Virus record (IMG/VR): IMGVR_UViG_3300017917_002140
Coordinates: 1-29,684 of that record
Reading direction: 5' to 3' (one strand)
Length of the DNA stretch: 29,684 nt
Source of the DNA: a virus
Shown: one piece after another, positions 2,098-27,943 of the stretch
How the letters are laid out: each line of letters opens with the position of its first letter
Numbering within the stretch: the stretch's first letter is position 1
Translations under genes and position numbers: made by a program
The notes under the pieces: model-generated
Databases searched by the model: none
Told to the model about the DNA's origin: nothing
What the model saw: the letters and a program-made list of their open reading frames with translations, nothing else

Positions 2098-2802
2098 TTA
2101 TCCTGCGCTAGTTAAGTTAGTTAGAGTTTGTATTCTAACTGTGTAATCAATTTGAATTAGTCGATTAAGCGATTTTTGCACAGGGTGGAACACAACGTGA
2201 GTTAATAATTTTCCTGTAGTAGTTAGCCCCGATGTTCCATCAGTGCTACGAGCTTTTAATCCAAGTTCGTCAAATGTGTAAGTGTCATCTAAGGTTGTAG
2301 AATTATCAAATGCACTTTGCCCAGCTGGCTCGCCGTAATCTAATAAGCAGCTAATTACAAGATCCGAATAGATACGCCCTGGGGTGTGTCTAACTTCAAT
2401 TTTATTTCTAGTAGGGTCAGTATTTAAGGTGCTGGTGTTATCTACAATCTTTGCAAAAGTGGGATTATACAAATTGCTATTACTTGTATTAATGTTTGAT
2501 GGCAAATAGTTAATAACTCCAGTTGGGTCAATACTGGTCCCACCATTACCAAAATGCATTTCGTAAATGTAGCTCTGTCCTTTATTTGCTAAAGTATAAG
2601 CGATCGCTTCACTAATGTTTTCGTAGTGGATAGCATTGCGTTTATCAACATATACTTCGCCTGAATTGGGATCAAAGATTTTAATGTGTCCTTGAACATA
2701 CACCCCACCATTTTCGTCGGGTTTTTTTTCTGTTTCTGTAGAATTACTCATTGATAAGTCCGTATTTTTGTCCATATCAGTATTTAGCTGTGGCTTTGTC
2801 AT
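2098..2802 (-). CDS. Baseplate/tail-associated structural protein, 234 aa, function unknown
   Basis: The first 30 residues are polar and probably disordered. From about residue 34 the sequence becomes folded-looking: VYVQGHIKIFDPNSGEVYVD, then KRNAIHYENISEAIAYTLA and an aromatic Gly-rich turn (YEMHFGNGGTS). I associate this pattern with small virion proteins next to fibre genes in marine T4-like phages, but no biochemical role is known to me. Its ATG overlaps the TGA of the giant gene by four bases (ATGA), which argues for translational coupling and a matched output. In-frame ATGs at residues 10 and 18 are possible alternative starts. An adaptor between giant protein and fibres would fit its position; this is inference. 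Confidence 0.7.
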   Translation of the reverse strand: MTKPQLNTDMDKNTDLSMSNSTETEKKPDENGGVYVQGHIKIFDPNSGEVYVDKRNAIHYENISEAIAYTLANKGQSYIYEMHFGNGGTSIDPTGVINYLPSNINTSNSNLYNPTFAKIVDNTSTLNTDPTRNKIEVRHTPGRIYSDLVISCLLDYGEPAGQSAFDNSTTLDDTYTFDELGLKARSTDGTSGLTTTGKLLTHVVFHPVQKSLNRLIQIDYTVRIQTLTNLTSAG

Positions 2803-5800
2803 GGTATATAACTCACTTGTTCTTTAATAAATTGGGCTGCATCACTAGTGCTACCTTCTAATCCAACTCCAGTTCCTAACGGAATCCATAAATTACTTTG
2901 TACAATCGACGTAGGCGTACTTAATGTAACGTTTCCAGAATTATCAATTTCGCCTAGTACTTTCATTGCAGTTACATTTGCAAGTGTGTATTGCCAACTG
3001 CTAGTTGAAGGAGTGAAAATCGACACTGTGTTTGCTCCCCCAATAGTAAGATTACCAGAAACAAATTGTACAGCAACTACATTTCCGGAACTAACAGATT
3101 CTAGTAGTTTTACATTTGCGGTATTGGCATTTTGTGTAATGTAACTTCCCACATTAGCAGTAATTGGAGATCCTAATTGTATTCTCCATGTTACGTTTGC
3201 AGCAGTTTTAAATGCTCCCGAAACTGTAGAAATTTTTGGTGCAGTATTTGGCAATCCTTGAACCAAGCTTCCGTCGGATACTCGTGTTCCTGCAAGATGA
3301 ATATTTGCTGATCCTGTTCCATCAACTCCTCTACGTAATTGTGATAGCGTATTTGGATATACTTGTTTTACATTTGCACTATTAATGTAGGTAGTGGCGT
3401 TAGCATAAACGTTAGCAAGGACCAAATAAGTATTACCACTATGTGCAATCAAACTATCAACTGCGAACTTAGTATTTGGAGCCCAGCTGTCAGCTGATGC
3501 TAATTTCGCTGAATCATATTTTTGATAATAATGAATTAGTTCCCCATTGACATAAACTTCGCCTGGGATTCCTACGCTAGCACCGGGATCTGGTAAAATT
3601 GATGCATCTGTAACAAAAATATCAGTATCGGTAATATTTAAATTTGCCGATAATGTAGTAGTTGCGTTAGCACTTATACGATAAAACTCAATATTACCGC
3701 GCATCGGCTGGAATTCTCTAAATCCATATGTAGCTGTATTACTTGCATTATTAGTGAATACTCTAATCTCTAATGCATCAAATACTCGACCGGGTATTAA
3801 TTCCTCTGGGGCATGACTGTTATATGCATCCACATAAGCACCACCAACAATATTAATATCTTCAGGTCTAGTTCCTAGTGCAGTATCTTTATAGAAACTT
3901 GCAATATTAGAATCTAATAAAGTATCAATTGTTAAGTTAGTAATTTTAACATTAGCAGTACCTCCGGCTATAATTTCCGAGATGCTTGCTGCTTTTGGCA
4001 CACCGTTAATTGAAATGGTGTTAGCAGAAACAGTGAATCCAGTTGTACTATGTATAATCTGAATCACATTGGCACTAGAATAATTATGCAACACGTATGC
4101 GTTTGCTCTTGTGTTTGCTTGTGTAATATAATCCCCTTCTTGTAAGCTAACGTTACTGTTTAGGGTAATAGTATAGATAGTTTCAATTGGAGGACCTGAT
4201 ACCATGATTTCACTGTGGTCAATACTTATAATTCTAAAATCAGCATTGTTCTTAAAATCAAAATTGTACTGTCCCTGGATACGCAGAGTATCGTTTAATT
4301 CAAAACCAATCTTAGCAAAATCAACTTGTTGTATATTTGCACTAGTTATACGCATTCCAGTATAATTAAAACCAATTACATCACTAGTAATAGCGTAACT
4401 ATTAGCGTCAAAGGATTTACCTAAAACTCTATTACCTGGGTAAGTAGTTCCGAACATTAACTGTCCAAAATCTTTACCTGGTCTTCCTACTTCGGGGTAA
4501 TAATATGAAGTGATTCTATCGGCCGCTGATAGAAGTATGTTTCCGTCATCAATTCTAGAATATCTAGAAAAATCAAAAACAGACTGACTACTTACATTTG
4601 CATTTGTGGCAATATAAGCAACATTATTATAGTATACGATGTTTCCATTAGTGATATAGACATTGCTATCAATAGGATTAATGCCAACGGAATTAAAAAT
4701 ATAATTTCTAATAGAGTTTGACCCCGAATCACTTATGTACATACCAGTACCGTCGTACTTAAAATACATTCCGGTTGGAGTATCTGTGTTTAGTCTAAAA
4801 CTATTCGACGGAATAGCAGTTGAAACGTCCCAATTAACTGTTAAGGTATATTCATGCAAGTAATCATTTTGCTGACCGATTACATATAATTTTGACCCGT
4901 CTGATTTAAATCTAACTGATGTGGGAATATTATCTTGCACAGACACCACTAAATTTTTTCCAGAATATGTAGCCGTTTCAACTTGCCATGGTGTTGTTAA
5001 AGTATATTGATAAACAGTATCGCTTAATGTCCCGACAACATACATATTAAGACCATCTTTACTAAACTCGACGGCTCTAGGACTTGATTCTTGAGACGAA
5101 ATACTTTTTGCTGAAACATTTGATGCAGTATTCACCATCCAAGGAGTTGCAAGTCTATATTCATAGATATTATCTGTAGTGGTGCCGGCGATGTACATTT
5201 TAGTACCGTCATCTTTAAAATATAATCCTTGAATATTTGTGTCTTGAGTTGCCACACTAAATGCGCCTACATTTGATGCTGTAGTAGTATCCCATGGAGT
5301 AGATAATGTATATTGATAGATTCTGTCTGAATCATTACCAGCAACATACATACTTGTTCCGGTATCGTTAAAGAATAATTCAGTGATGTCTGAATCCTGA
5401 TCACCGACACCGCTGTTTAGATCGTTAAATTCTAATCTATCAAGATTCCATGCATTTGCGTTATTACCATCAACAACGATTGTTTTTTCATAAGGAGTAT
5501 TTGGTTGCCATTCAACTATATTACTTGTGTAAGTTATTCTATCAAATTTTATAGTTGTTATAATGTCTCTAACAGTATTGTAACTTCCGTTAATATTATA
5601 TTCGTTATTTAAAATTGGGTAAGCTGTTGCACCCGAACCAACACCGTTGATATACACAGTAGGTGTAGAAGTATAACCGCTACCGGGATCAGTAACAAAT
5701 ATACCAGTTAATTGTCCAGTAGCAGGATTTATTGTGGTGATTGCACTTGCACCAGCCCCACCACCGCCAATGATTTCAACGTTAGGCGCAGTAGTGTAAT

Positions 5801-8800
5801 TTATTCCCACATTTCCTATTAAGTAATTTGTAACTTTATATTTGTAATTTTCAGCATAAGCAGAATAAAGAGGAAGAGTAAAATACCCAGCATCCGCTGC
5901 GGTATCAATGTCTGGTGATTTATAAATCTCAAGATCTTTATAGTATCTTCCAGGAACATCAAAATCTGTCCAAGTGCCTGTTGCTTCGTCTGTTTTACTG
6001 TACAGAGGAACGTATTCTCTAACAGCCGTACGGTAGGGTTTGGCTTCGTTGATGTATTCGTTATAGAAACTTTGATTATCTCTAATATAGTTCGGAATCT
6101 GCTCTAGAGTTCTTAAATTATGGAATATATCAATGAAACTAGTCTTAAAGATCCAATCTGGACTCTTTTGTTCAGCAAAAATATAATTAACAATAGAGAA
6201 GAATAATGTATTAAATTCAATTGCTAGGCTATTAATTAAAATTTCTTCATATACACTATTAAAAATTTTACCAATTTCTGTGCCGGCTGCTGGATCAAAA
6301 TCCACAATATCAAAAACTGTAGAGTCAAATCCTGCGCCCCAATTTACTTCGTATAATCGACTGTTTAGCGTTAATGTTGCATTTGCAGCAGCTATTAGCG
6401 TTAAACTAAGATCACTCTCTACTCGATAAATTAGCCAATTTCCTGCACCGTCATCTAATATTTGAATATATTGTCCGGCTACAAGATCAACAGTTTGAAT
6501 CGCTCCGTAGTTTGCAACGACGTAACTTATGTCTGTTCCTGCAACATATTCCGAGCTATACCAATCAATTGGATCCCACCAAATACTAGTTTTATAGCTT
6601 TGAATATATTTTAAATCAAATTCTTTAGTAACACCATTGAAAACATATAGAGTCCAGCGACCGTCGTATCGAGAGTCTATTGGTATTAAAATAGTATATC
6701 CATCAACAAAAGTATCCACATCAAGGTATGACAGTTCTGCAAATGATGCTACTTCATCGTCATATACTGTTGGCAAGGGTTCTTCTGCAAATAAAGTTGA
6801 TGCATTGCTAATTAACAGAACAGGATATTGAACAAAAATATCATTTAAATTAATTACAAAACTTTTTAGTGCTTCAATGCGATCTAAAAATACTCCTTGT
6901 CGAGGACGTATTAACAATCCAATTCTATTTTCAACTGTTAGTTTTGGATCTGGTACTAATTTTCCAGCTTCGTCGAATCCTCTGTAACTTTCGCGTAGCT
7001 TGTTAATAATTCTCTGTGGCAATACCTGACTAGGGTTACCTTGCTGTATAAGTTGATATTCGTTGTGTATAAGATTACTATTTTTTATATCACAAGTTTC
7101 TATATGTAAAACAATGTCTTTGCTACTTAAAAGATTTGAAATATTATATAAAGCAAAACTATTTTGTGCCATTGGCCCAATATAAGGAAGATTTTGATCT
7201 TTTGGATTGCTTATATATTTTTCTAAACTAGACACACTTAGTGTTCGCTTAGATTTAATAACATCAACAGATGTTTTATCTCCAACCCAATAATAATATT
7301 TTTGTGAAATAATTCCTGTTGCAGGATCTACTATCGTTACACTTGTGTAGGCAGAATTGTCTTGATACTTCGGAACTCCGTCTCCTCCTGCCGCAACATA
7401 TTGACTAGGTAAGAAATTACTTTCAACCCATTCATAAATTTTAACTTGGCTTCCTGGGAATAAATTACCCCAATTTTTTATTCTATATTGTAAAGAGCCT
7501 TGTTCGTATTCAATAAAACTTGCTTGGCTTGTGTCCCACCAAGTTCTTCCTACATGTCTATTAGACCAATAGAAAGTAGAATTTTTTATTACATCAGAAT
7601 TTGCAGTAGTGTTATAAGAAGCCGGATCGTATTCTTCTTTATAATCTAGTTCCTGATCTACTACTCCCAATATCTTTCCTTTTGCAGGATCATAAACATC
7701 AAAGAAATTTAAGATAGTCTGAGTTTTTTTATTGTAGATAAATGCAGAATCAATAGCCGAAGGATCAACTTGGTTATTTTTATATCTGATTAAATTCCAG
7801 CCAGATCTGTTATCTTCGTTATAGTAAGTGTATATACTACCACCTGACTGTACAATATTAAAATCGTTACTTACGCCTACTGCCATTGAATCACCAACTA
7901 GACTAATGCCGGAACCAAAATTGTATCCGGTGTCTAGATCTGGACCTACTAACTTTTGTGTAAATGCAAACAACGAAGGATTATCAATTGATTCATAAGG
8001 ATTTTGCATTAAGTCATACATATAGACTGCGCCCGAATCTTTAATTTCATCAACAAACACTGTACTTTCGCTATCAAAAGTAGTCGCCGAATAACTTGAG
8101 TCAAACGTAATTGGAATGCTAATATCAGCACCTTCACTACCTATTGCTAAAACTCCAACTGCCTGCGATAAACCTAATGCTGTACCAAACCGTTCGCCAA
8201 CATTATTTGGGTGTTTGATAATCTGTGTCTTTTTATATAATTCAATTCCAAGATCAGCAAGAGCAGTACCGGTACTTCCGGGCTTAATATCTAGTTTTTC
8301 ATTGGCCACAGCAACATCGCTATTAATTCTTAATTGTCCTTGATAGTTTTCCGCAGTAACTCCGGGAATATTAGAATTGTTAATAGAAATAACAACACTG
8401 TCTAGACTAGTTCCTGTTAAGACAACATTCCTGTCATTAATCACTAAAGTATGACCCACAGTAACAGTAGGGTTAGTTATAGTTCCAGTTACTTGACCAT
8501 ACACTCTTCCAACATTTACATAACGAGTTACCAGACCTGATCCGTAATTGATTTCTGCATAGTACGGGCTGCTTGAATATAAATTGCATCCAGATCCACA
8601 CATTGCCAATATACTTCCAAATTTTTGTCCTGTTACTCCAAATTCAGACGCATCAATTGACTGATCCAACACAAATTGGTTAGTTTCGATCCTTATTTTC
8701 TGCCCGCCAGCTGGGGTTGCAAATCCCGGGAACTGTACAACATTTAATGTACCAGAAGGTCTATACCAATCTACGTTTTCTTTTAAGACTGTATTATTAA

Positions 8801-11800
8801 ATAATACTCTATATACGTCATTAAAATCGTCGGGTGCAGTAAATGTACCCGAGAACCCATCAGTTGTAAATTCTGTAATTGTTCTGTGATAAACATTAAC
8901 AGTGCCTTCGTTGGCGGTTCCGTTAATTGATTTATAATTAGCACCAACAGCAATCATTGACGCATCTCGATTGACAGCAATTGCACAACCAAAATTTGTA
9001 TCTGCTGCTCCAGTCAAAGTATCAATTAATTGATAGTACGATGATTTTTTAAGTATATCAAATCTTTCAAAGAGTGTAGGTGCGGTCCCAAAGGTACAAT
9101 TTGTTACTTGTCCTGCCGATCCTACTGTAATTGTTAGATCGTTAGCAGGTGACGTACCTCCTAAATCAGTACCCGCGATTGTTAAGGTATCTCCGGCTGT
9201 ATATCCAGAACCGGCACTAATTCTAATAGTATCTGTATAAACGCCAACGTTGCTATGAATTACAGTAAACTTAGCACCCGTACCTGTACCGCCTGTGGCA
9301 CTTAAATTTGTGTAGGTTAATGTTCCGGCGCCGCTTATTGCATTTCCTGTAGTAGTAAATGCAGTAATACCGTTTGAAGCTTGTGTTATTGTGTATTCAA
9401 CTGTCGGAACATACTCTGCTGATCTTAAAACAGCAAATACCACAACATCAGTTGGGTCTGTTACAGTTGATGATAATGTATATGTGGTACTTGCACCATC
9501 ACCTTCAAAAGATTGAATGTCCTCTGTGCGAGTCTTTACTGCATAGCACATTACTTTATTAGCGCCAGGCGCACCTATGTAAAGATAAGCACCATCTCTA
9601 CTCATTGCAATAGAACTACCAAATCCGTCGTTTGCTGTTCCTATTGAATCGGTTAAAACCTGTATTAGTACGCCGTCTTTATATACATAAACATACCCTT
9701 GCCCAGTTGAACTATCTGGTGCTCCTACAGCAAAATAACCATTGCCATTGGCAATTACTTTACCAAATCCACTTAGTCCAGTACTGTTTCCGTATAAGAA
9801 GGAACTGGGAATCCAAGAACTTGTACTTGCCTTCCCAAAAATTGCAGCTCGACCTGTTCCTGATCCCGGAGCACCAGCATATAGTAATTGACCTGTAGTA
9901 GGATCTAAGCTAACTGTTTTACCAAAGAAGTCATTGCCTGACAGCTTACTTGCGTCCAACTCAACCTTTGATGCATAATCCCAAGGGTCAATTTTATCAT
10001 ATACTCCCCAATTTTGATTACTATCTAAGTTGCTTACCCAAACTTTATCATTAGGGATCCAACCGGCCACTGGTCGAATTGATTCTACTTCATTGAGATA
10101 ATCAATTTTACTTGAAGTTAGTTTAAACAAAATGCCGACACCAGCAAATGCTTGTGTATCAATCATTTGTTGTAAGTTTTGATATAATCTTACATAAAAT
10201 CTTGAACTATCAATTATACTATCAACTTGATATACGCCATCAAATTTTGGTTCAAAGTTTTTTAATACAATTAAATCATCAACAGCTAGTCCGTGTTCTC
10301 TATCAAAAATTACTTCAACTAAATCATCAATATTATATCTTAATCCATAAACATAACCATTAACTAAACTTGCTCTATAAACATTCCAATTTTTATCAAA
10401 ATCTCTAGCTACCCAGATTTTATATCCAATACCAATGTTATTAACAATTGTAGTTAAAGTCTCGTAATCATTTAAATTAAAAATAGTTGCATCAACATCA
10501 TCAAGATTTACAAATCCTGCTACCGGTAACGGTTTATAATCAATTGGTTGATTTATATCAGCTGTTCTTAGTATGTTTGCTTGATACTCGCCAGATGATT
10601 TAAAAACATTTCTGTTATCAAATGATAATACGTCTGGTTCTTTAACTACAGTATCATCAATTAATTGGAAGGCCGTTGGGTTACTACTAAAATCAGTTTC
10701 ATTTAATTCAAATTCAACAAACTGATTAATATCAGTTGCGCCGTACTCACCTACACGAACAGCCCAGTTTTCGTAAAAATTAATATCAGTATCCAGATTT
10801 CCAAACACTGATCCTTTTAATGCATTTAATGCATTTACTGTTCCTTTTTGCTTAATAAACCCTTGATAGAATTTACTTTGTGTTGTTGGATCGATACCAA
10901 GATTACTAAAATAATCTCTATTTCTAAATCCAATTAATCCGTTACTAAACAGTTGTAGGTCTTCGTTAATTGGTTGATTATCAATATCATAGAAATTAAT
11001 ACCTTGCTGAGCATTAGTAGCAAAGTTATTAATCATGCCAGATTTAAGTTCGGACGCTGGAATTAATTGCCAATTGTTAGTCTGGAATTGATCTGATGCT
11101 GTAATGTTTTTAATGGCAGTATAGAATCTAGATTTATACTTAATAACAGAGCCTTTCAGATAGTCCTTCCCCGAAGCCCACTCATCAACGACATCGCTAC
11201 TATATATAAATCCAGGTAATTCAAGAGTTCCGTTCCAGCTTGCGGTTTTTGCTCCAACAAGTTTCAATCTATATTGTCTATTACCTAATTCCGGCACATA
11301 GATGATGTCATTAAACACTGTAATATTGTCTAATATAAGCAGGTGTTCGTACTGTATTAAATCTAATTCTGCAAATCCAACAGTCTGATCAGCATTTGAA
11401 GTAAATGTAAAAGTATTATTTTCTCTGTTTATTGTAAAATTATTTTTAATAATTGGTTTAAAATTTATGTCCAACACTCTACTAGAGTATGGCATATTTT
11501 TAATTTCGTCAATAGTCGCTTCTCTATCGAATACTTTAAGAACAGTAGATACCGGGCTAAGAACAAGAACACTACCAGGGCGCCATCCTTGACTTGACCA
11601 GTGTAAAAATTCCTTGGCGCTTAGAATCCAATCTTTTTGCTCTTTAAGATCGTTATCTCTATCAATAAAAATAAATCCTTGCGCTAGTAGATAACGCTGG
11701 TAACTTACTAAGAAATCAACTACTTGTTGTTTTGTATTAAATTCAAATCCATAAGGAACAGTATATTTTGCTTTTTTAAAGTCTTTGTAGATTGTTCCGC

Positions 11801-14800
11801 GTTGATTGCCAGATGTAATAGTGTAGGCATTATTATTAACTTGGCTAGGAATTATAAAGAAGTAAGGATTAGTTAAATCGTACCCACTTACAACATATCC
11901 AGAAACACTTTTTTCAATAATAACGGCACTGTAGGTAATTTTGTTTACCGGACTTCCTTTATACAACTCAATTCTATAGTTTTCTTCAGGAACTACAACG
12001 CTGTCACTGATACTACTTGGGCTGCTTTGTTCAGCTAGCAATTCAATGAATTTCTTGTCTGTGTATCCTGCCATCTTATACGCCAATTGAACATCTAAGG
12101 CAGCAAGATTATCTTTAATTAATTCAGATGCAGAGTCTATACCTAAGTTTTTAACATAATCTCTGATCCAATTTAAATAACCAGAATTTCGTTCTATAGT
12201 TGAATTGTTATTATATCCCTGTACTAATAACGATGTAGGGGTAACGTGTTGCCCAGTACTGGTTATTTCAAATTGAGCTGTAACTAAATTTCTTGTATAG
12301 TTCTGAGTATTAGCCAATAAAGAAAAATATTTTGCTGGCTTTGCTAAGGCTAATGCCAATTGCATAGCAAAAGGAAACTCACTGCTTCGGCGCCATGCTG
12401 TTTCTGTTGGGCCAAAGTCTCCAACTGCATAACTTACGTTTGCTTTATTGCTATCAAAGTCTGCAATTAATCCAACCTGTTGTCCAGTAGCTGGATTTAT
12501 GCCTCCAATTTCTGTTGGAGATTTTAGATTTCCGCTATCATCAACAGGAACCATAAATGATAAGTTTGGTCTTTGATATCTTAAATCAAATCCTGCACGA
12601 GATCCAGCATGGATATATCCTAGACTTAAGTCACTCCATAATAGTCCATTGCCGCCGGTATAAGGAGCTGGTCCATAACGATCTTCCCAGTAGCTTGGCT
12701 TTTCACTGAATCCTAACATTTCCCAAGGATGTGTATGTGGTCTATCAGTATCGTAGAAATATTTAAAGATAGCTCGCCAGGTCCCTGGAGCAGTTTCGCC
12801 ATTTACCGCATCTCTGAATCGACGGTAGTTCCATGTAAATGGATCTGAAGCTGAGAAAATGTTGTTAGTTGTAAAGTCTAATCTATTAGTTCCGATCCAC
12901 GATAAGAATCCTTGACTTAGAATTTGTGTAAATTCTGTTAAAGAATAATCAGTAGTTCTGAACTTGCCTGGCAGATAATCATGGATATTAAAAATATTAG
13001 TGTCGTATTGAACTTTAATATTGTTATAAATCCGACGTTCTAATTCTAGAATTAAACTATCTCTGAAATCGTTAAAGGCCGGCATAATACTACCATCGTG
13101 ACCTTGGATAACAGAAATTGGCTCTCTGTAAGTATCATCTACGTAGATTTCTGGATAGTACTTAGGATACATCCCCATTTTAGTTGGGGTTTCCGGTACA
13201 TAGCATCCGTCAGTGGTACTGTATTCCACTATGTCAATCTTGTCGCCGTATAATAATCCAAAGCTATCGTTAATAGTAATAGCAGGTCTATCTTGTCTAA
13301 AATAAAAATCTCTATCTTTAATTAACAATGTTTTTGTTGCAACACTATTAATTGTTCTTGTTAGATAAACTAACACCGCTTTATTACTAATAACAGTATC
13401 ATTAAAGATATTTGTAATTTCGTAACTAGTAATGTCAGGATCTAGTACTGTGTAAGTTGGGATGATTGTTTTCCCTAAATCACCATACGGAAACATATCG
13501 CTATAATACCAAGGGAAGGAATCATTTTTGACTGCATTTATTTGCAGCATGATTGCATCAACACTTCCCGGGATATCATTTCTATCCAGGTCTAAGTTAC
13601 TAGCTAAGTCTAAGAATTTGGTTTTAAATTTTGTATATTCTCTATTTGCTAATTTCAGAGAATTAATAAAATTCATTGTTGGGTGATTTAAAAACAGCCC
13701 AGCATACACAACCGGCGCACTGTGTTGCAATACACTTCCGCCTTTGTTAGTATATTGTATATCTCTAAGATTACTATTTCCGGGAACCTTACCAACAACA
13801 TCAAGACTGTTATTTTTAAGCGTAATTAAGTGATTACGCATTTGACCTAGCGTTAAAGTTTCAAGATTCACATTTAAACTATTAACATCAAGGTTTAACG
13901 GAACTTCATAAAACGCATTAGGTGATACTAAGTTTTTATTAAAGATACTAATAAAAATAACATCGTCTTTAACAATGAGATCAGGATTAACTAATACTGC
14001 ATACTGATCAACTACGCGAGTAACAGCAAAATTTCCGATATCTAAAATTTTGTTATTAACTGTTACTTTGATATTAGGATTGATTACGCTAGTATCAGGA
14101 ACATTGTCAATAGGAAATAAGTTTGTTTCTCCATCATACGCAAATTGATAATTTTGATACTGATGGCTAAAATCTCTGTTAATTGTCCATATATTCAATC
14201 TTTGGCATGTAGATGCGCTTAGATTTTTTTGTAAATATCCTGCATTAACATTTATTGTATTAATTCCCCCGTTACCTATTAGGTAATCGAATGACTGTGT
14301 ATCATAATCGTTTGAAAACTGGATATCACCTTGGCTTACAAAATTCTTGTAACTTAAAGGAAAACCAATAATACTGTCATTTACTCCTGTACCTCTTTTA
14401 TAAGAGAAAATCTTTGTACCTGTGAAAGTAGTTCCAGGATAAACTGACGAATCAGTAAAACTTATTCCGCTGTCATTAATAACGTCAAACAACGGTTCTT
14501 GATTGTTAAATGTTTTTTCTTGAGATGCTTTCCAAGACGAACCATTATAATGCCAATGCTTTCCGCCGTTGTCTCCGGACAAAATTAATACTGTATTTCC
14601 GGCAACTATTTCTGCATCATCGGCTTCTTCGATATAAGCCTTGTAAATCAATGGGTCAGGTTGTTCTGTTGTTAGTTCTATTGAAAACTTGTAAATCTTA
14701 TTTCGAACATTGTTATTAATATCATTAGAAAAAATAACTCTATCACCGGTGGTTAAAGTTAAATCTCCTACAGTAAAAGTTTTTGTATCAACACAGACTT

Positions 14801-17003
14801 TTCCTTGTATCTGTGTAAAAGCATTATCAATGGTTGTGTCAAGTATATCAACAGGGAATTTAGCTTCTGCACCAAAATTAAACAATTGTAAGTCAGCATC
14901 AAATTCAATAATTGGACGACTGGCTCTAAGATCTTGATTAAAGATCGCATCTGTTCCGTTGTAGTTTGCAGTTTTTTGAATCACATCCATGTGGAACCAA
15001 CGATTAGATCTAGTCCATGGATTTTGATCAATGCTTGATCTTTTTATTGTAATATAGTCCTGCACAACTGGTTGCAGATAAGCGTTTATTAAAGCATTAA
15101 CTCCTGACCCACCGGTTAAAGTAACAGGATTTGTTGGCAATTTTGAATAGTTGCCCCTGTCTTTAATTTTAAACGCAGAGATTGGTCCAGAAGTTGGCGG
15201 ACTCAGAGTAATCGTAGGGGCTGAAAAATATCCAGCACCGGACGAATCAAGAACAATACTTGTTACTACACCATCAGTAATTACAGCATGAGCATATGCA
15301 CTAGTGCCACTAGAAGGTGCCGATTCAATAGTTACCGTTGGAGCACTAGTATATCCAGATCCTCCGTTGATAATTTCAATTGATAAAATCGCACCAGTAA
15401 TAGAATTAATTGTTGTTGCAGCAGTTGCAGTATCCTCAAATATTTTTGTTACTATTGCAGTAGCAGCTTGAGTTCCGGTTCCGCCGGCAAATGTTAAGCG
15501 ATCTCCTACTAGGTAATTTTTACCTGGCTCAACAATAGTACTAGTGTTAATAGATTCAACGGATACTAAATCTTCTTCTGCAATTAATGTAATGCTGATA
15601 CCAACACCTTCAACATAGTAATTTTTATTTCTCCATGCCTCGGGCGCACTACCATCAAATCGTACTTTTAATCCATTGGTAAATGTAATTCCATTTGGAC
15701 TAGTATAGTTCAGCTGGCCTAAAATTTGAGTGCTCGGGTCTATTTCACTAACAGTTGGCTCAACTAGTTGTATTGAACCAACTGCATTGTTATTTTCTCC
15801 GCTTTGATAAAATAACACATCTTGTGGAGCGGTAATGTATGGAACTGATGTTAATAAATTTAGTCTAGAATAAAATTCTCGGCCAGCATACTGAGCACCT
15901 GCTTTTATTCTAACTTTATGCTCGTTGGCAATTGGTAATTTAGGGAACAATATAATTCGTTCTACATTGTCTTGATCTCGTTCAATCTTAATTGTAAAGA
16001 TACTGTTTCTTTGCTCAAAAGGAATTATGTCATTTTGGTCAAAATACGCTACACCATCTTCGACTCTAGATGTATCAACCCAATAGGCGTCATCTATGTA
16101 AGCAGGATTTACAAAAATAATAGAAGCATTTTCAAGGTAGCGGACTGTTCCATCAACTCCACCAAGGTCTTCGTTAAGTTGTTGCGGATTTGCTCCAAGA
16201 ATTTGATCAAATGATAAGTTCGTTGCATAATCAACATCATCGACAACTGGCATAGAAGTCCATCGACTTTGTGCTGTGCTCGACGGAACAGTGAATCTAA
16301 CTATTCCTGATGATTGTCCGTTGTTAGAAACTCCTAATACTTGTTTAATATCTAAATTAGGCATTGCCGGATCAACACCATTCACACCCGGCTTTGATTG
16401 TATATAAAATTCGTTTCCTGGTTCGTTGATAACAAAATCATATACACCACCACGAGCTAGTGTAATAGTAGGATTTGGTGTTTTTCCGTACCCGGTAAAT
16501 TCATATGTTCCTGATGTTGCATTGTATGTTACATCAAAAGAATAATTCAATGGCACACCAACAGCCGACACAACAACCGGATCAGGACCATTATCTAACC
16601 AGTAGTACTGGCTGAAATTAACAAACTTGTCTAAATCAATTCTAGGATTATATGTGTAATATTCGTTTTCAAATAAACGACTATGATTGTTAGTCAATCC
16701 GCCGTAATATTTGATTTTGTTAATAATATCAGTATAAGTTGTAGCAAACTCAATTTCGTCTGTAACTTCATTTTTAATTACTAACGAAGGCTCAAGTTGA
16801 TAGTTCTGTCTATCTTTACTAGTTTCCTCAATATAGCTATCAGTCGTTTTGTATGATGGAGCTAATTTTCTTCCAATGTACCCATTGATTTTTTTAAGCG
16901 ATGGTTCGCTAACTAACTGATCAAGAGTTGCATTAAGAAACTTTTTATTTGTTTCAGTTTGAAAAACTTCAGGTAAAAACTGATGAGTCTTAATAACGGC
17001 CAT
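2799..17003 (-). CDS. Giant 4734-aa virion (baseplate periphery/tail) structural protein
   Basis: A single uninterrupted frame of 14.2 kb, about 520 kDa. The start is ATG 17003 with AGGA six bases upstream, 11 bp after gp6. The N terminus (FLPEVFQTETNKKFLNATLD) and a block near residues 1430-1540 (DRPHTHPWEMLGF, then RYGPAPYTGGN) look like the conserved core of very large structural proteins in marine T4-like phages. Modules seen, by approximate residue: GSGYTSAPTVTI-type repeats at 540-605, with related copies near 2595 and 3730-3795; a chitin-binding-like W...Y..G..V.Y...Y.A motif at 1941-1978 and a second near 4505-4537; FG-GAP-like beta-propeller repeats at 2355-3068; a five-repeat propeller at 3868-4105; and a PGEVYVNGELIHYYQ...LRRGVDGTG block at 4490-4560. 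Placed between gp6 and the fibres, it could replace or extend T4 gp7/gp10. That role is inferred. Confidence 0.85.
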   Translation of the reverse strand: MAVIKTHQFLPEVFQTETNKKFLNATLDQLVSEPSLKKINGYIGRKLAPSYKTTDSYIEETSKDRQNYQLEPSLVIKNEVTDEIEFATTYTDIINKIKYYGGLTNNHSRLFENEYYTYNPRIDLDKFVNFSQYYWLDNGPDPVVVSAVGVPLNYSFDVTYNATSGTYEFTGYGKTPNPTITLARGGVYDFVINEPGNEFYIQSKPGVNGVDPAMPNLDIKQVLGVSNNGQSSGIVRFTVPSSTAQSRWTSMPVVDDVDYATNLSFDQILGANPQQLNEDLGGVDGTVRYLENASIIFVNPAYIDDAYWVDTSRVEDGVAYFDQNDIIPFEQRNSIFTIKIERDQDNVERIILFPKLPIANEHKVRIKAGAQYAGREFYSRLNLLTSVPYITAPQDVLFYQSGENNNAVGSIQLVEPTVSEIDPSTQILGQLNYTSPNGITFTNGLKVRFDGSAPEAWRNKNYYVEGVGISITLIAEEDLVSVESINTSTIVEPGKNYLVGDRLTFAGGTGTQAATAIVTKIFEDTATAATTINSITGAILSIEIINGGSGYTSAPTVTIESAPSSGTSAYAHAVITDGVVTSIVLDSSGAGYFSAPTITLSPPTSGPISAFKIKDRGNYSKLPTNPVTLTGGSGVNALINAYLQPVVQDYITIKRSSIDQNPWTRSNRWFHMDVIQKTANYNGTDAIFNQDLRASRPIIEFDADLQLFNFGAEAKFPVDILDTTIDNAFTQIQGKVCVDTKTFTVGDLTLTTGDRVIFSNDINNNVRNKIYKFSIELTTEQPDPLIYKAYIEEADDAEIVAGNTVLILSGDNGGKHWHYNGSSWKASQEKTFNNQEPLFDVINDSGISFTDSSVYPGTTFTGTKIFSYKRGTGVNDSIIGFPLSYKNFVSQGDIQFSNDYDTQSFDYLIGNGGINTINVNAGYLQKNLSASTCQRLNIWTINRDFSHQYQNYQFAYDGETNLFPIDNVPDTSVINPNIKVTVNNKILDIGNFAVTRVVDQYAVLVNPDLIVKDDVIFISIFNKNLVSPNAFYEVPLNLDVNSLNVNLETLTLGQMRNHLITLKNNSLDVVGKVPGNSNLRDIQYTNKGGSVLQHSAPVVYAGLFLNHPTMNFINSLKLANREYTKFKTKFLDLASNLDLDRNDIPGSVDAIMLQINAVKNDSFPWYYSDMFPYGDLGKTIIPTYTVLDPDITSYEITNIFNDTVISNKAVLVYLTRTINSVATKTLLIKDRDFYFRQDRPAITINDSFGLLYGDKIDIVEYSTTDGCYVPETPTKMGMYPKYYPEIYVDDTYREPISVIQGHDGSIMPAFNDFRDSLILELERRIYNNIKVQYDTNIFNIHDYLPGKFRTTDYSLTEFTQILSQGFLSWIGTNRLDFTTNNIFSASDPFTWNYRRFRDAVNGETAPGTWRAIFKYFYDTDRPHTHPWEMLGFSEKPSYWEDRYGPAPYTGGNGLLWSDLSLGYIHAGSRAGFDLRYQRPNLSFMVPVDDSGNLKSPTEIGGINPATGQQVGLIADFDSNKANVSYAVGDFGPTETAWRRSSEFPFAMQLALALAKPAKYFSLLANTQNYTRNLVTAQFEITSTGQHVTPTSLLVQGYNNNSTIERNSGYLNWIRDYVKNLGIDSASELIKDNLAALDVQLAYKMAGYTDKKFIELLAEQSSPSSISDSVVVPEENYRIELYKGSPVNKITYSAVIIEKSVSGYVVSGYDLTNPYFFIIPSQVNNNAYTITSGNQRGTIYKDFKKAKYTVPYGFEFNTKQQVVDFLVSYQRYLLAQGFIFIDRDNDLKEQKDWILSAKEFLHWSSQGWRPGSVLVLSPVSTVLKVFDREATIDEIKNMPYSSRVLDINFKPIIKNNFTINRENNTFTFTSNADQTVGFAELDLIQYEHLLILDNITVFNDIIYVPELGNRQYRLKLVGAKTASWNGTLELPGFIYSSDVVDEWASGKDYLKGSVIKYKSRFYTAIKNITASDQFQTNNWQLIPASELKSGMINNFATNAQQGINFYDIDNQPINEDLQLFSNGLIGFRNRDYFSNLGIDPTTQSKFYQGFIKQKGTVNALNALKGSVFGNLDTDINFYENWAVRVGEYGATDINQFVEFELNETDFSSNPTAFQLIDDTVVKEPDVLSFDNRNVFKSSGEYQANILRTADINQPIDYKPLPVAGFVNLDDVDATIFNLNDYETLTTIVNNIGIGYKIWVARDFDKNWNVYRASLVNGYVYGLRYNIDDLVEVIFDREHGLAVDDLIVLKNFEPKFDGVYQVDSIIDSSRFYVRLYQNLQQMIDTQAFAGVGILFKLTSSKIDYLNEVESIRPVAGWIPNDKVWVSNLDSNQNWGVYDKIDPWDYASKVELDASKLSGNDFFGKTVSLDPTTGQLLYAGAPGSGTGRAAIFGKASTSSWIPSSFLYGNSTGLSGFGKVIANGNGYFAVGAPDSSTGQGYVYVYKDGVLIQVLTDSIGTANDGFGSSIAMSRDGAYLYIGAPGANKVMCYAVKTRTEDIQSFEGDGASTTYTLSSTVTDPTDVVVFAVLRSAEYVPTVEYTITQASNGITAFTTTGNAISGAGTLTYTNLSATGGTGTGAKFTVIHSNVGVYTDTIRISAGSGYTAGDTLTIAGTDLGGTSPANDLTITVGSAGQVTNCTFGTAPTLFERFDILKKSSYYQLIDTLTGAADTNFGCAIAVNRDASMIAVGANYKSINGTANEGTVNVYHRTITEFTTDGFSGTFTAPDDFNDVYRVLFNNTVLKENVDWYRPSGTLNVVQFPGFATPAGGQKIRIETNQFVLDQSIDASEFGVTGQKFGSILAMCGSGCNLYSSSPYYAEINYGSGLVTRYVNVGRVYGQVTGTITNPTVTVGHTLVINDRNVVLTGTSLDSVVISINNSNIPGVTAENYQGQLRINSDVAVANEKLDIKPGSTGTALADLGIELYKKTQIIKHPNNVGERFGTALGLSQAVGVLAIGSEGADISIPITFDSSYSATTFDSESTVFVDEIKDSGAVYMYDLMQNPYESIDNPSLFAFTQKLVGPDLDTGYNFGSGISLVGDSMAVGVSNDFNIVQSGGSIYTYYNEDNRSGWNLIRYKNNQVDPSAIDSAFIYNKKTQTILNFFDVYDPAKGKILGVVDQELDYKEEYDPASYNTTANSDVIKNSTFYWSNRHVGRTWWDTSQASFIEYEQGSLQYRIKNWGNLFPGSQVKIYEWVESNFLPSQYVAAGGDGVPKYQDNSAYTSVTIVDPATGIISQKYYYWVGDKTSVDVIKSKRTLSVSSLEKYISNPKDQNLPYIGPMAQNSFALYNISNLLSSKDIVLHIETCDIKNSNLIHNEYQLIQQGNPSQVLPQRIINKLRESYRGFDEAGKLVPDPKLTVENRIGLLIRPRQGVFLDRIEALKSFVINLNDIFVQYPVLLISNASTLFAEEPLPTVYDDEVASFAELSYLDVDTFVDGYTILIPIDSRYDGRWTLYVFNGVTKEFDLKYIQSYKTSIWWDPIDWYSSEYVAGTDISYVVANYGAIQTVDLVAGQYIQILDDGAGNWLIYRVESDLSLTLIAAANATLTLNSRLYEVNWGAGFDSTVFDIVDFDPAAGTEIGKIFNSVYEEILINSLAIEFNTLFFSIVNYIFAEQKSPDWIFKTSFIDIFHNLRTLEQIPNYIRDNQSFYNEYINEAKPYRTAVREYVPLYSKTDEATGTWTDFDVPGRYYKDLEIYKSPDIDTAADAGYFTLPLYSAYAENYKYKVTNYLIGNVGINYTTAPNVEIIGGGGAGASAITTINPATGQLTGIFVTDPGSGYTSTPTVYINGVGSGATAYPILNNEYNINGSYNTVRDIITTIKFDRITYTSNIVEWQPNTPYEKTIVVDGNNANAWNLDRLEFNDLNSGVGDQDSDITELFFNDTGTSMYVAGNDSDRIYQYTLSTPWDTTTASNVGAFSVATQDTNIQGLYFKDDGTKMYIAGTTTDNIYEYRLATPWMVNTASNVSAKSISSQESSPRAVEFSKDGLNMYVVGTLSDTVYQYTLTTPWQVETATYSGKNLVVSVQDNIPTSVRFKSDGSKLYVIGQQNDYLHEYTLTVNWDVSTAIPSNSFRLNTDTPTGMYFKYDGTGMYISDSGSNSIRNYIFNSVGINPIDSNVYITNGNIVYYNNVAYIATNANVSSQSVFDFSRYSRIDDGNILLSAADRITSYYYPEVGRPGKDFGQLMFGTTYPGNRVLGKSFDANSYAITSDVIGFNYTGMRITSANIQQVDFAKIGFELNDTLRIQGQYNFDFKNNADFRIISIDHSEIMVSGPPIETIYTITLNSNVSLQEGDYITQANTRANAYVLHNYSSANVIQIIHSTTGFTVSANTISINGVPKAASISEIIAGGTANVKITNLTIDTLLDSNIASFYKDTALGTRPEDINIVGGAYVDAYNSHAPEELIPGRVFDALEIRVFTNNASNTATYGFREFQPMRGNIEFYRISANATTTLSANLNITDTDIFVTDASILPDPGASVGIPGEVYVNGELIHYYQKYDSAKLASADSWAPNTKFAVDSLIAHSGNTYLVLANVYANATTYINSANVKQVYPNTLSQLRRGVDGTGSANIHLAGTRVSDGSLVQGLPNTAPKISTVSGAFKTAANVTWRIQLGSPITANVGSYITQNANTANVKLLESVSSGNVVAVQFVSGNLTIGGANTVSIFTPSTSSWQYTLANVTAMKVLGEIDNSGNVTLSTPTSIVQSNLWIPLGTGVGLEGSTSDAAQFIKEQVSYIP
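4690..5400 (-). repeat. Five tandem ~51-aa beta-propeller repeats in the giant protein
   Basis: Residues about 3868-4105 hold five copies of the pattern F..DGt.MYvaG...d.IyqYtL.tpWdv.tAs. The MY/LY positions are spaced by about 147-158 bases (49-53 codons), and each unit contains the YQYTL/YEYRL strand and usually a following Trp. The sequence resembles YVTN/NHL-type propeller blades. Five visible blades could be a complete propeller, or part of one completed by less regular flanking strands. Confidence 0.8.
7800..9935 (-). repeat. FG-GAP-like beta-propeller region in the giant protein
   Basis: Residues about 2355-3068 contain repeated blades with an FG..(v/i)... signature followed by a (A/V)GA or VG strand: FFGKTVSLD, GFGKVIANGNGYFAVGAP, DGFGSSIAMSRDGAYLYIGAP, NFGCAIAVNRDASMIAVGA, RFGTALGLSQAVGVLAIGS and NFGSGISLVGDSMAVGVS. 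Most are followed by a YVYVY/VNVYH/VYMYD-type strand. A Gly/Thr-rich segment of about 150 residues (about 2470-2620) is inserted between blades. The pattern matches integrin-alpha-like FG-GAP propellers, here very likely an extracellular contact module. Confidence 0.75.
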
Positions 17004-17014
17004 TACTTTTCCTA

Positions 17015-20000
17015 TTATGCTATATTAAGTTGTCCTGCAGTAATTGCGCTGATAATTTGTACATTATCTACAGTTGCCGCACTTACTAAAATTTCATTTG
17101 CTTCTGCATTAATTTGATACAATGCGCCAAAGCTAGTTAATTCTGCAGCCGGAACAATTACCACGCTGCTTACGTTTGGTGTTAGTGCTGAGTGCAAATA
17201 TGCACTCAATTCACTGAAATAGAAAGTTTCCCCAAAATCCCAGTTTGCAATATCAAAGTACGTATTAATTGCTGCAATAACCTGACTCTTAACATCGTTG
17301 TCACTAATATTTACGTTTGGATTTTTCACCACTTTAAAAGTAGCTCTTAGTGCATCTTCGGCTTTATTACCAAACAAAGGTTTAAATTTAGCCGGATTAT
17401 AAATGATGCTATCGCTAATAGTTTTAAAGTTTTCAATTGAACCAAATTCTGTTCTTAACTCGTCGCTAGTTGGGGCAACTGGTTCTTGAACTCTATTCGT
17501 AGGATCGGTAATATAAGCATAGTACTGATCGCTATAACTTCTTGTTAGAATATAAAAGTCAATTAGATTGTTAGGACTCGGATCAATGCGTCTGCTATTC
17601 GGAGCATTGTGTGTATATTGGAACATTAAATTTTGTCGTCCTACCCTAGCAATATAATTTGTAAGTAATGTTAGCTCAGATCCGTCAGACTGAAAAAATT
17701 TGTTTTCGACGTATGCATAAAAAATTGTAGTTGCTGGATATAAAGTTATATTGTTAATAATATCTGTTTCTGATCCATACGACGATACTATATTAGCCTG
17801 ATCAACTGGATTGTATTTGACAAAATTAAATTGATCAACTGCTTGAACAAAAAATACAAATTTATTTTCTGGATTTGTTGTTGGCTCTACTAAAGTTTTG
17901 AATAGATCAGGATCATCTGGCACTTCGTCTAAGTTGTCGTCGGGGAAAGTTACATAAATTTTTCTGTTATCTTCGAAACCATCAGACTCGATAACCCGAT
18001 TATAAATTCTATAAACCTGACTGTAAAATAAACTATCTGATGAATCAGGCATAGTATTTGTACGTAGAACTTTAATAGCATCTAGTCTAGTAGTTGCAGT
18101 TTTACTGTCATATACTTTTATGTCTGGGTCATAATAAAATCTGGTTTCTCTTCCACTTTGGAAGTAGTAGTTTATTCCGCGACTAGTTACAGTATATTCT
18201 TGATTAGCAAACACAAACTTTAAAAACCAACTATTGTCTAATGCAGTCCCGGAAGTGTTTCCGGTATAGGTAAGATCAAAGCTACCGGATCCAAGATTGG
18301 CTGCATCAATTATAGTCCATAGTTTATTAACTATATCATATCTTAAACCAAAAGTTTTATAACTTAAAATATTATTAATAACTTGAGTTGTTAAAGACGA
18401 AGGCCAAGTGTTGGCAAACACCGGAATAACTTCGGCTATCTCTGCACCAGTAGGAACATTGATACTTAAAACAGCATTACCAACACCTGGGGTAGGATAG
18501 GAAATAATGCTTGCCCAGATAGAAGACCTTTGATATTCTGTTTCTATAGTTCCAGTTTGTAATTGATTCTGTGCGTCAAAGTATTTTCCAGTGGGTGCAT
18601 TGAACTTTACTAAAGCACCTTGATTAAGATAAATGTAACTTGAAGCATCAAAGGTTCCAGTACTACGACCACCGCTAAACGATGTACGAGTCCATGTACC
18701 AGTAGGAGTATATCTAGTTGCTGTTTTATAATACAAATGTCTAGTAGGTATTTTAGCAATTAAAGGCAAAATCATATTTTGCACAATATAATTTACTTCG
18801 CTGCTACTAGTAAATTGGAATGTTTCTATTTCTGAAGAGTCTTCGGTATAAATGATTCCGTCCTCGGCAAAAATATTTGTACTAGAATATTTTCCTGTAG
18901 AATCAACTACATCTAAAAATCTACTTACACCAGAACTTGATCTATTAACTGCTTTAATCTTTAAGATATTACTAAATGTGGTAAAAGGTAAAACATTATA
19001 ATCCTCCCCGGTAACCATACGGTTTTGCGTATAGTATTGTTGAGGAGCATTAGTTCGAATGTCTTCTAAAGTTTCTCTTGCAGATGCATTAGTAACTGTA
19101 TATTGCAAGCTTGCCCGTACTGTTAATGTTTCAGCTCTACCAGTTCTTCCCCTATACGGAATTGTGACAGTTACCGAACTCATCTCTTCGGGAGTAATTT
19201 TATATGTTTGGTTATTACTTACTCGATAATATAATCTAAAGTTTCCAGTTGGAATGTTTGTAAAGCTACCATCGCCAAATACTAAATCAATTTGATCATT
19301 GGCTCGTGTGCTTACGCTGTATAAATTACGGTCTGCGGTATTATTATAAATTACATTAATTCCACTAACTGCAGGAACTTGAGTCCATAATGTAGTAGGA
19401 TTGCCAGCTGCGTTTAACGAATATAGCCACACGTCGGCGTTATTGATGTTATCAAAATTAACATTAACTATACGATTTGGTAAGCTTTCGGTAATTGAAA
19501 AATCTAGATTTTTCAATTCGCCTTGTTTAAAATAGAAAAAGTATCCGGTATTATTTGACCCGTTGCCTTGATTATCGTTTCTGTATAAGAAATTAAAAAC
19601 CCCGCTAGGTGCAGGCTCGCGCTCGTATATATAAGTTTTATCTGCAGAAGTAGGACTTATAATTTCAAACGGATATGTAACTCCAGCAATACTTGAAGTA
19701 TATGGCTGCACCGGAATCAAGCCATTTAATAAGTCAATTGCGTATTCGTCTGTTTTTACTCCGCTTAATGTTTTTGTAGCGCCGGGCTTACCAATTGCTT
19801 GCGTACTAACTAAAGCAGCGTTAAGAACAGCGGTAAATTGTTCTAACCAGTTCTCGTTGGTACTATCGTTCCAATTAATTAATTGATTACTTAAATTAGT
19901 ACCTGTGCTATCGTAAATTATCTCCGATGTGCTTACATTCTGAAACTTTAAGTATCCTGCTGCTGGTGTGCTTCGCTTTGGGTTATAACTAATTAATCTA

Positions 20001-20302
20001 GCTAGTTTAAGTATGCTATCACGGCGTTCGGCTGTATCTAAGAAGTTTTCTCTAGCGTTAATATCTGTTCTGAAAGCTAAACTTTGTCCTAGGAACGCAA
20101 TTAAATCTATTAGCGCAATGTATTCTGAACTTTCAGTAAAGTCATTGAAATCTTCTGGGTAGTATGTACGCAAGTATTCAATCATACTCTTGCGTAATGT
20201 TTCGAAATCAAAACTCTGGAAATCAGCTTCTCTAAAAGTCTGATAGATCTTAGTCCAATCTTGTCGGGCTAATAAACTTGTTTGTCTAGTAGTAATCGCC
20301 AT
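17015..20302 (-). CDS. gp6: Baseplate wedge subunit gp6-like (baseplate J family), 1095 aa
   Basis: The N terminus (FETLRKSMIEYLRTYYPEDFNDF, then YIALIDLIAFLGQSLAFRTDINARENFLDTA across residues about 35-90) is the signature of T4-like gp6, the wedge protein that forms the inner iris ring and triggers sheath contraction. Around residues 400-440 it has ETLEDIRTNAPQQYYTQNRM followed by VTGEDYN, the conserved baseplate-J-like core. The C terminus (YFDIANWDFGETFYFSELSA, then VVIVPAA and FGALYQINAE) matches the family's closing domain. At 1095 aa it is far longer than T4 gp6 (about 660 aa), apparently through insertions between residues 450 and 980. The ATG at 20302 follows a late-promoter motif and a weak AGG. 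The giant gene follows 11 bp downstream. Confidence 0.93.
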   Translation of the reverse strand: MAITTRQTSLLARQDWTKIYQTFREADFQSFDFETLRKSMIEYLRTYYPEDFNDFTESSEYIALIDLIAFLGQSLAFRTDINARENFLDTAERRDSILKLARLISYNPKRSTPAAGYLKFQNVSTSEIIYDSTGTNLSNQLINWNDSTNENWLEQFTAVLNAALVSTQAIGKPGATKTLSGVKTDEYAIDLLNGLIPVQPYTSSIAGVTYPFEIISPTSADKTYIYEREPAPSGVFNFLYRNDNQGNGSNNTGYFFYFKQGELKNLDFSITESLPNRIVNVNFDNINNADVWLYSLNAAGNPTTLWTQVPAVSGINVIYNNTADRNLYSVSTRANDQIDLVFGDGSFTNIPTGNFRLYYRVSNNQTYKITPEEMSSVTVTIPYRGRTGRAETLTVRASLQYTVTNASARETLEDIRTNAPQQYYTQNRMVTGEDYNVLPFTTFSNILKIKAVNRSSSGVSRFLDVVDSTGKYSSTNIFAEDGIIYTEDSSEIETFQFTSSSEVNYIVQNMILPLIAKIPTRHLYYKTATRYTPTGTWTRTSFSGGRSTGTFDASSYIYLNQGALVKFNAPTGKYFDAQNQLQTGTIETEYQRSSIWASIISYPTPGVGNAVLSINVPTGAEIAEVIPVFANTWPSSLTTQVINNILSYKTFGLRYDIVNKLWTIIDAANLGSGSFDLTYTGNTSGTALDNSWFLKFVFANQEYTVTSRGINYYFQSGRETRFYYDPDIKVYDSKTATTRLDAIKVLRTNTMPDSSDSLFYSQVYRIYNRVIESDGFEDNRKIYVTFPDDNLDEVPDDPDLFKTLVEPTTNPENKFVFFVQAVDQFNFVKYNPVDQANIVSSYGSETDIINNITLYPATTIFYAYVENKFFQSDGSELTLLTNYIARVGRQNLMFQYTHNAPNSRRIDPSPNNLIDFYILTRSYSDQYYAYITDPTNRVQEPVAPTSDELRTEFGSIENFKTISDSIIYNPAKFKPLFGNKAEDALRATFKVVKNPNVNISDNDVKSQVIAAINTYFDIANWDFGETFYFSELSAYLHSALTPNVSSVVIVPAAELTSFGALYQINAEANEILVSAATVDNVQIISAITAGQLNIA

Positions 20303-20349: not shown

Positions 20350-20724
20350 TTATGATGCAACGAGGTTGTTTGTGTTGGAATTAAATTCTAATCTTAGTTG
20401 TTCAGAATAATTTCCGGGCAAGAAAGTAAGATCAATTTGAATTTGTATTCCGTGCTCAAATTCATCTAATAAAACATTATCTACACGTAAGCGGGGATCG
20501 TAACTTACTATTCTTCTTACATCTTCGACAATTGTTGATTTAACGTCGGCTGTCAATGGTTCGTACAGCATATTCCAAATAATGCTACCAAAATTTGGAT
20601 TCATCAATTTCTGACCTTTTCTTATGCTAAAATGATTTATAAGGTCGCGTTTAACTAATTCTGCGTCTGTTAGGCGAAATTTTTTAATTTGGTTAATTGT
20701 ACTGAAGCCACGATATCTAGTCAT
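20350..20724 (-). CDS. gp25: Baseplate wedge subunit gp25-like, 124 aa
   Basis: The size and sequence fit the GPW/gp25 family (T4 gp25 is 132 aa), the small wedge protein that joins gp6 and gp53 and nucleates the first sheath ring. Conserved pieces are the central KLMNPNFGSIIWNMLYEPLT (glycine-aromatic turn plus the EP motif), VEDVRRIVSYDPRLRV, and a final IQIQIDLTFLP strand with a short C-terminal tail. The start is the ATG at 20724; no convincing Shine-Dalgarno precedes it in the AT-rich 30-bp gap after the hydrolase gene. It is followed by the internal late promoter, so gp25 closes the first transcription unit. Confidence 0.92.
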   Translation of the reverse strand: MTRYRGFSTINQIKKFRLTDAELVKRDLINHFSIRKGQKLMNPNFGSIIWNMLYEPLTADVKSTIVEDVRRIVSYDPRLRVDNVLLDEFEHGIQIQIDLTFLPGNYSEQLRLEFNSNTNNLVAS

Positions 20725-27637: not shown

Positions 27638-27943
27638 TTACACTCCTAGATCTTGTTGGAGTGTGGCTTTCTTAGGTATAAAAATTTGGACACCTGCTCG
27701 AAAATCAAATAATGGATCTTTAAGTACATTAGGATTACGTTGGGCAAATACCCACCATAATGCGCTATCACCATAAAGGTCCGATGCTAGGATGTCTGGA
27801 CGATATTCATAGACTTTGTCTATTTCGTATAGGACATCGTCGTCCTTTTTAGTAATAGGACGATGTACCATAACATCTAAAAAATTCCCAAATGTCTTGG
27901 TTTGAGCATAAGGGCTAGTATTTTGATAAGCTACTTTAGCCAT
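27638..27943 (-). CDS. gp53: Baseplate wedge subunit gp53-like, 101 aa
   Basis: The core YEYRPDILASDLYGDSALWW, followed by VFAQRNPNVLKDPLFDFRAG and QIFIPK, is the typical motif of the gp53 family, a LysM-like small wedge protein. It is shorter than T4 gp53 (196 aa), as in other marine relatives. In T4, gp53 works with gp25 and gp6 to close the inner ring of the baseplate. Its ATG directly follows the TAA of gp48 (no gap), with AAGGA about nine bases upstream inside gp48. The hub gene starts one base after its stop. The compact arrangement suggests stoichiometric co-expression of tube cap, wedge and hub proteins. Confidence 0.88.
   Translation of the reverse strand: MAKVAYQNTSPYAQTKTFGNFLDVMVHRPITKKDDDVLYEIDKVYEYRPDILASDLYGDSALWWVFAQRNPNVLKDPLFDFRAGVQIFIPKKATLQQDLGV
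27643..27647 (-). promoter_or_regulatory. Ribosome binding site deciding the TTG start of the hub gene
   Basis: AGGAG on the minus strand lies six bases upstream of the TTG at 27636, inside the end of gp53. No ATG or GTG is available nearby in this frame, and the frame remains open only from just downstream of the gp53 stop, so the TTG start is the best supported choice. Confidence 0.75.

Follow-up and report, generated by a model that had tools for sequence, protein, structure and literature searches.

Results

A giant gene directly downstream of gp6

The window, by which we mean the whole 29.7-kb virus record analyzed here, carries genes in the order late sigma factor (gp55-like, on the opposite strand), phrog_12050, gp53, phrog_11190, a gp5-like hub, phrog_27932, gp25, gp6, a giant gene, phrog_11259, and fiber-like genes (Table 1). 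The giant gene is a single frame of 14.2 kb on the minus strand, which opens with ATG, encodes 4734 aa, and has zero internal stops. A preliminary description had reported this uninterrupted frame with exact coordinates, leaving its strand unstated, and had placed it between gp6 and the fibers. Both points hold, with gp6 (phrog_10646 and phrog_219) on one side and the fiber-like genes on the other. The gp6 frame ends 11 bases before the giant gene begins. The ATG is preceded by AGGAAAAGTA, and an AGGA motif a few bases 5′ of it constitutes a ribosome-binding site. At the other end, the stop codon overlaps the start of the next gene as ATGA.

Several neighboring genes deserve mention in their own right. 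The sigma-factor gene (phrog_12791, E = 4e-67) is divergent beside the baseplate genes, as it is in RaK2 and PA5oct. The gp5-like hub combines an OB domain with a DUF2345-type match and has no Pfam lysozyme domain, unlike the hubs of RaK2, CBB, and Munch, which are annotated with lysozyme. Between hub and gp25 lies a 429-aa gene, whose match to a PHROG described as "baseplate hub subunit and tail lysozyme" covers only 119 residues. The phrog_11259 protein is encoded directly after the giant gene in PA5oct and Atu_ph07 as well as in the window and may be the giant protein's partner.

Table 1. Features of the giant gene and its neighbors, with positions in the window
Feature	Position	Strand	Basis or remark
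phrog_11259 protein	2098..2802	-	Adjoins giant gene in several relatives
Giant virion protein, phrog_10938 family	2799..17003	-	4734 aa; PHROGs profile match; 4719-aa frame in 4 contigs
Conserved N-terminal block, aa 1-148	16560..17003	-	Invariant residues over 12 phages; aa 33-70 predicted flexible (AlphaFold2)
Cupredoxin-like beta-sandwich, aa 149-419	15747..16559	-	VIA-align match to rusticyanin, Z 10.0, rmsd 2.2 (97 residues)
Gly-rich GSGYTSAP-type repeats, aa 489-640	15084..15539	-	phrog_460 match at aa 512-684; motif positions
Core block C1, aa 646-1745	11769..15068	-	Most conserved part of the family; AlphaFold2 pLDDT ~85
T7 gp17 N-terminal/tail-fiber adaptor-like domain, aa 1177-1263	13215..13475	-	VIA-align Z 7-8
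Core block C2, aa 1745-2215	10359..11771	-	Family alignment
CBM5/12 carbohydrate-binding module, aa 1936-1984	11052..11198	-	VIA-align; Pfam PF02839
FYQG..KQKGT..A..L....YE-W motif, aa 2043-2080	10764..10877	-	Conserved; tentative counterpart of T4 gp7 STKG, profile E ~0.03, not significant
Probable FG-GAP beta-propeller of seven blades, carrying three inserted domains, aa 2350-3060	7824..9956	-	Pfam PF14312 (FG-GAP_2) E 4e-8; seven FG motifs
Core block C3, aa 3065-3725	5829..7811	-	Family alignment
Second Gly-rich GSGYTSTP repeat, aa 3721-3800	5604..5843	-	Motif positions; PHROGs match
Lactonase-type beta-propeller, aa 3850-4105	4689..5456	-	Pfam PF10282 E 2.7e-7 (match aa 3931-4104)
Variable C-terminal region, aa 4106-4734	2802..4688	-	CBM5/12-like motif at ~aa 4507
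gp6 baseplate wedge protein	17015..20302	-	phrog_10646 E 0, phrog_219 E 1e-25; immediately upstream of giant gene
gp25 baseplate wedge protein	20350..20724	-	Pfam PF04965
429-aa gene	20755..22044	-	Partial PHROG match
gp5-like hub	22047..23648	-	OB domain; DUF2345-type match
gp53 baseplate wedge protein	27638..27943	-	phrog_7145 E 9e-30; Pfam PF11246
gp55-like late sigma factor	28919..29683	+	phrog_12791

Family, gene order, and selection

The 4734-aa protein belongs to phrog_10938, a family of giant virion proteins that jumbo phages encode. The PHROGs profile of this family ("virion structural protein," 3324 positions) matched it over four stretches (E = 0, 1196 bits). A nucleotide search of the phage collection returned zero matches. 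Using tblastn, we found orthologs of the protein in approximately 60 sequenced phages, including RaK2/K64-1, PBECO4/121Q, CBB/GAP32, Munch, PA5oct/MIJ3, SCTP-2, Atu_ph07, and Phosso, as well as Vibrio 2.275.O, XaC1, RAS14, and XacN1. IMG/VR contains at least 586 related stretches. The named members RaK2 ORF070w (3326 aa), PA5oct gp355 (3857 aa), Atu_ph07 (4449 aa), SCTP-2 gp140 (3807 aa), and CBB_236 (3340 aa) share with the window protein a homologous core, the order of its blocks, and the single frame. Among the loci that we fetched, 62 complete giant frames, measured from stop to stop, span 3148 to 5280 aa with a median of 4420, and five of the 62 are longer than the window protein. It was fair to call the protein one of the largest phage structural proteins, but it is exceeded by P-SSM2 gp7 (5195 aa) and by the relative L097 (5280 aa). 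The profile of another virion structural family, phrog_701, has 6136 positions.

The gene order of the window recurs largely in its relatives, and the giant gene lies directly 3′ of gp6 in nearly all of them. Specifically, the gp25-gp6-giant order seen in the window is kept in RaK2, PA5oct, Phosso, CBB, PBECO4, Munch, XaC1, Vibrio 2.275.O, RAS14, and XacN1, and in Atu_ph07 the giant gene adjoins the gp6 homolog. The exception is SCTP-2, where a 3096-aa protein stands in gp6's place directly before the giant gene (L014:10633-19923) and the gp6 homolog is encoded some 80 to 90 kb from it.

The frame is also intact outside the window. Four IMG/VR contigs from four other metagenomes, possibly not all independent viruses, carry the giant gene as a single 4719-aa frame. 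Among relatives that are 82 to 84% identical, pN was ~0.10 and pS was ~0.73 in all comparisons, and pN was far below pS in each 200-codon window tested, from aa 1 to ~4400. The giant protein is under purifying selection across the entire tested length. Such a deficit of pN along the frame indicates a functional protein and not an accident of assembly.

The preliminary description had called the product a virion protein, a statement that holds for its orthologs and is presumed for the window protein. In CBB, 21 peptides of CBB_236 were identified in virions by mass spectrometry (PMC5259590). In phAPEC6, gp245 (381.88 kDa) is listed in virions with 17 peptides, beside the baseplate wedge protein gp244 (PMC7247149); we take gp245 as an ortholog on the basis of size, neighbors, and the near-identity of phAPEC6 to PBECO4 rather than a direct alignment. 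The PA5oct gp355 record carries the note ESI-MS/MS.

A conserved core with exchangeable modules

In an alignment of 13 family members, aa 1-148, 646-2209, and 3065-3725 form conserved blocks, and the stretches between them are poorly shared. This core is conserved among phages whose hosts are Klebsiella, Agrobacterium, and Pseudomonas. Conserved blocks together with unevenly shared domains indicate that the giant protein is a conserved core bearing exchangeable, lineage-specific modules. AlphaFold2 gave a pLDDT of 85.3 and a pTM of 0.65 for aa 1-1200, and 84.6 and 0.77 for aa 1000-2199, with low confidence at aa 33-70 and in a few loops. Two fragment alignments (A4 and A5) were dropped from structure prediction, as they stretched short blocks over the query (checked on A4).

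The conserved blocks, two propeller regions, sugar-binding-like motifs, and Gly-rich repeats that had been read from the sequence at the outset were all recovered. The cupredoxin-like sandwich at aa 149-419 is interrupted by an insertion and is missing in RaK2-type members. GSGYTSAP-type motifs sit near aa 548-596 and 3774. A match to phrog_460, "head closure Hc2," was rejected as a sign of a neck protein because it falls on the Gly-rich repeat. Seven FG motifs at aa 2360-3034, along with the FG-GAP_2 match, probably form a seven-bladed propeller with three inserted domains. The Lactonase-type propeller is 37% identical to a protein of Lentibacter phage ICBM2. More broadly, it is 30 to 37% identical to proteins of Lentibacter phage, Roseobacter phage, and S-SKS1, a module common to differing marine phages. 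Neither the FG-motif propeller nor the repeat motif of propeller 2 was detected in 12 isolate orthologs; relative to the named isolates, the window protein adds both propellers and the Gly-rich repeats.

Two smaller domains resemble parts of other phage tails. The CBM5/12 module was matched by VIA-align to the Milano baseplate chain 8fqc_P1 (Z = 6.7, rmsd 1.0), and its PF02839 match (E = 3e-4) lies below the Pfam cut-off. In the predicted model, aa 1177-1263 matched many phage tail-fiber or adaptor chains (8ck1, 7rfv, 9ay5, and 7ey9), weakly and near the tool's background level. We treat its likeness to T7 gp17 N-terminal and fiber-adaptor domains as a lead.

With this domain content, it is conceivable that the protein is mainly a giant adsorption fiber or adhesin, docked to the baseplate outside the wedge. 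It is beta-rich and carries a carbohydrate-binding module, two propellers (the second common to other marine phages), Gly-rich repeats, and a T7-fiber-like domain. However, the propellers, like the repeats, are insertions that vary, whereas the core of 2.4 thousand residues is conserved from Klebsiella to Agrobacterium and Pseudomonas hosts, unlike receptor-binding fibers, and separate fiber genes come after the giant gene. We regard this explanation as unlikely.

Comparison with gp7 and other wedge proteins

T4 gp7 (1032 aa) has the same position after gp6 and the same role that we propose for the window protein, but it is more than four times shorter, has no detectable sequence homology to it, and is absent among the structural matches shown. 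The giant gp7 proteins of cyanophages (P-SSM2 PSSM2_111, 5195 aa; S-SSM7 gp7, 3007 aa; phrog_2885) resemble the window protein in their slot directly after gp6, in their size, and in their GSGYTS-type repeats, but not in their core blocks, which are without significant homology. In Synechococcus phage S-SSM7, two giant genes in one region are annotated gp7, with one smaller gene between them (L031:16861-30276).

Profile comparison separates these two groups. Cyanophage giant gp7 matched the T4 gp7 profile significantly as a positive control (probability 90.8, E = 1.2e-6), and no block of the phrog_10938 family significantly matched either T4 gp7 or giant cyanophage gp7. An HMM-HMM search against T4 gp7 had been suggested in the preliminary description as a check on its fusion idea, and it came back negative beside a positive control. 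Cyanophage gp7 proteins of 3007 to 5195 aa share an STKG region with T4 gp7, and this motif is detectable in them but not in the window protein.

It is possible that the protein truly descends from T4 gp7, having diverged extremely and grown through insertions as cyanophage gp7 did, with the KGT region at aa 2043-2080 as a remnant of STKG. Besides the shared slot and the STKG region common to T4 and giant cyanophage gp7, the best alignment of the C2 block falls in that very region of both the cyanophage and T4 profiles. Yet the alignment (E ~0.03, probability <2%) is not significant, the KGT region has no Pfam, PHROGs, or PDB-sequence matches except to its own family, and the motif lies ~2000 residues into the protein compared with ~190 in cyanophages. 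We therefore doubt this descent, though somewhat less than the other alternatives, and keep the KGT motif as a candidate remnant and a lead. The question concerns descent, and the answer can be compatible with a wedge role.

Additional searches covered six complete related jumbo-phage genomes. A gp7 alignment search that found T4 and P-SSM2 but missed S-PM2 detected no gp7 family member in these six or in four large contigs. The gp8 family was likewise unrecognized in the six genomes, with T4, P-SSM2, and, weakly, S-PM2 found as controls; P-SSM2 and S-PM2 retain a separate gp8. The gp9/10 family (PF07880) was also unrecognized in the six, in a weak test that missed P-SSM2 and S-PM2 too. The six genomes do carry gp6, gp25, and gp53 of the wedge core, while gp7 and gp8 are unrecognizable in them.

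The preliminary description had suggested that the giant gene may be a fused replacement for several proteins of the T4 wedge and periphery, encoded in T4 by separate genes (gp7 to gp12). One large chain where T4 has several genes, and the unrecognized gp7, gp8, and (weakly) gp9/10 families, would fit a fusion. But profile comparison showed no block that resembles gp7, and Pfam and PHROGs found no match to the gp8 or gp9/10 (gp10) families anywhere in the 4734-aa protein. Absence by sequence is itself weak evidence, given that PF07880 also missed the two cyanophages. In nearly all relatives the protein is a single chain whose blocks keep their order; the gene is split over separate frames at just three loci, which look like broken frames, and no split ancestral gene set occurs among the relatives. 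In addition, PA5oct has a separate gene for a Gp10_C-bearing fiber. We consider a fusion very improbable. The giant gene occupies the position of gp7, directly after gp6, and neither gp7 descent nor a gp7-gp12 fusion is supported.

Structural searches gave a similar picture over the modeled range. For models of aa 1-2199, Foldseek matched no solved structure significantly. The Foldseek and VIA-align lists for these residues included no T4 wedge proteins, and the VIA-align lists included no gp8- or gp10-like folds, although absence from the VIA-align lists does not exclude T4 gp7. Structure prediction had also been proposed at the outset as a way of finding a wedge-like fold; within aa 1-2199, the resulting models gave no significant match to a wedge protein. 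Foldseek also paired aa 1-1200 with DDB1, but these alignments were long and of low probability, and we discarded them as spurious. Sequence searches of solved structures with the whole protein and the family block alignments yielded nothing significant and no family structure, and the available portions of the phiKp24 and phAPEC6 papers contain no atomic wedge model. The 4734-aa protein is an additional member of a family that is known but whose structure is unsolved.

A proposed wedge-position baseplate protein

The explanation that we favor, with a probability of roughly 65%, is that the virus is a T4-related jumbo myovirus from the RaK2/Atu_ph07/PA5oct assemblage and that the gene encodes its giant baseplate protein in the wedge position, the core of which joins the gp6 wedge and forms the outer baseplate. 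The phrog_10938 match, the gp25-gp6-giant synteny, and the virion peptides of orthologs argue for such a role. So do the matches of the CBM5/12 and fiber-adaptor-like domains to phage baseplate and fiber chains in VIA-align and the retention of gp6, gp25, and gp53 in six genomes with unrecognizable gp7 and gp8. By analogy, cyanophages offer a precedent with a giant gp7 in the same slot. Against it, there is no significant sequence match to any wedge protein and, for aa 1-2199, no significant fold match; the strongest structural matches concern small domains and lie near background level, and SCTP-2 breaks the adjacency to gp6.

As a baseplate protein of this kind, it would be present in six copies per baseplate. 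The conserved core (aa 1-148, 646-2209, and 3065-3725) would join the gp6 wedge, and the N-terminal block, the first segment after gp6, is the proposed attachment to it. The core may then form the outer baseplate and carry the attachment sites for fibers. The exchangeable modules (cupredoxin-like, CBM5/12, propeller, and Gly-rich) would face outward, where they could contact glycans of the host or the environment or else brace the fibers. Upon fiber binding, the giant protein may transmit motion to gp6 and the sheath, like the periphery of T4.

A bolder version holds that one chain, 3 to 5 thousand residues long, fills the roles of T4 gp7, gp8, and gp9/10 through unrelated folds, which would make a single-chain wedge characteristic of a large jumbo-phage assemblage; we offer it as a speculative possibility. 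The phrog_10938 family is widespread, and its members occur in virions, yet database records describe them just as "structural" or "hypothetical" proteins. Placing the protein in the gp7 slot, mapping its core against its modules, and finding gp7 and gp8 unrecognizable makes baseplate construction in jumbo phages testable by one cryo-EM structure.
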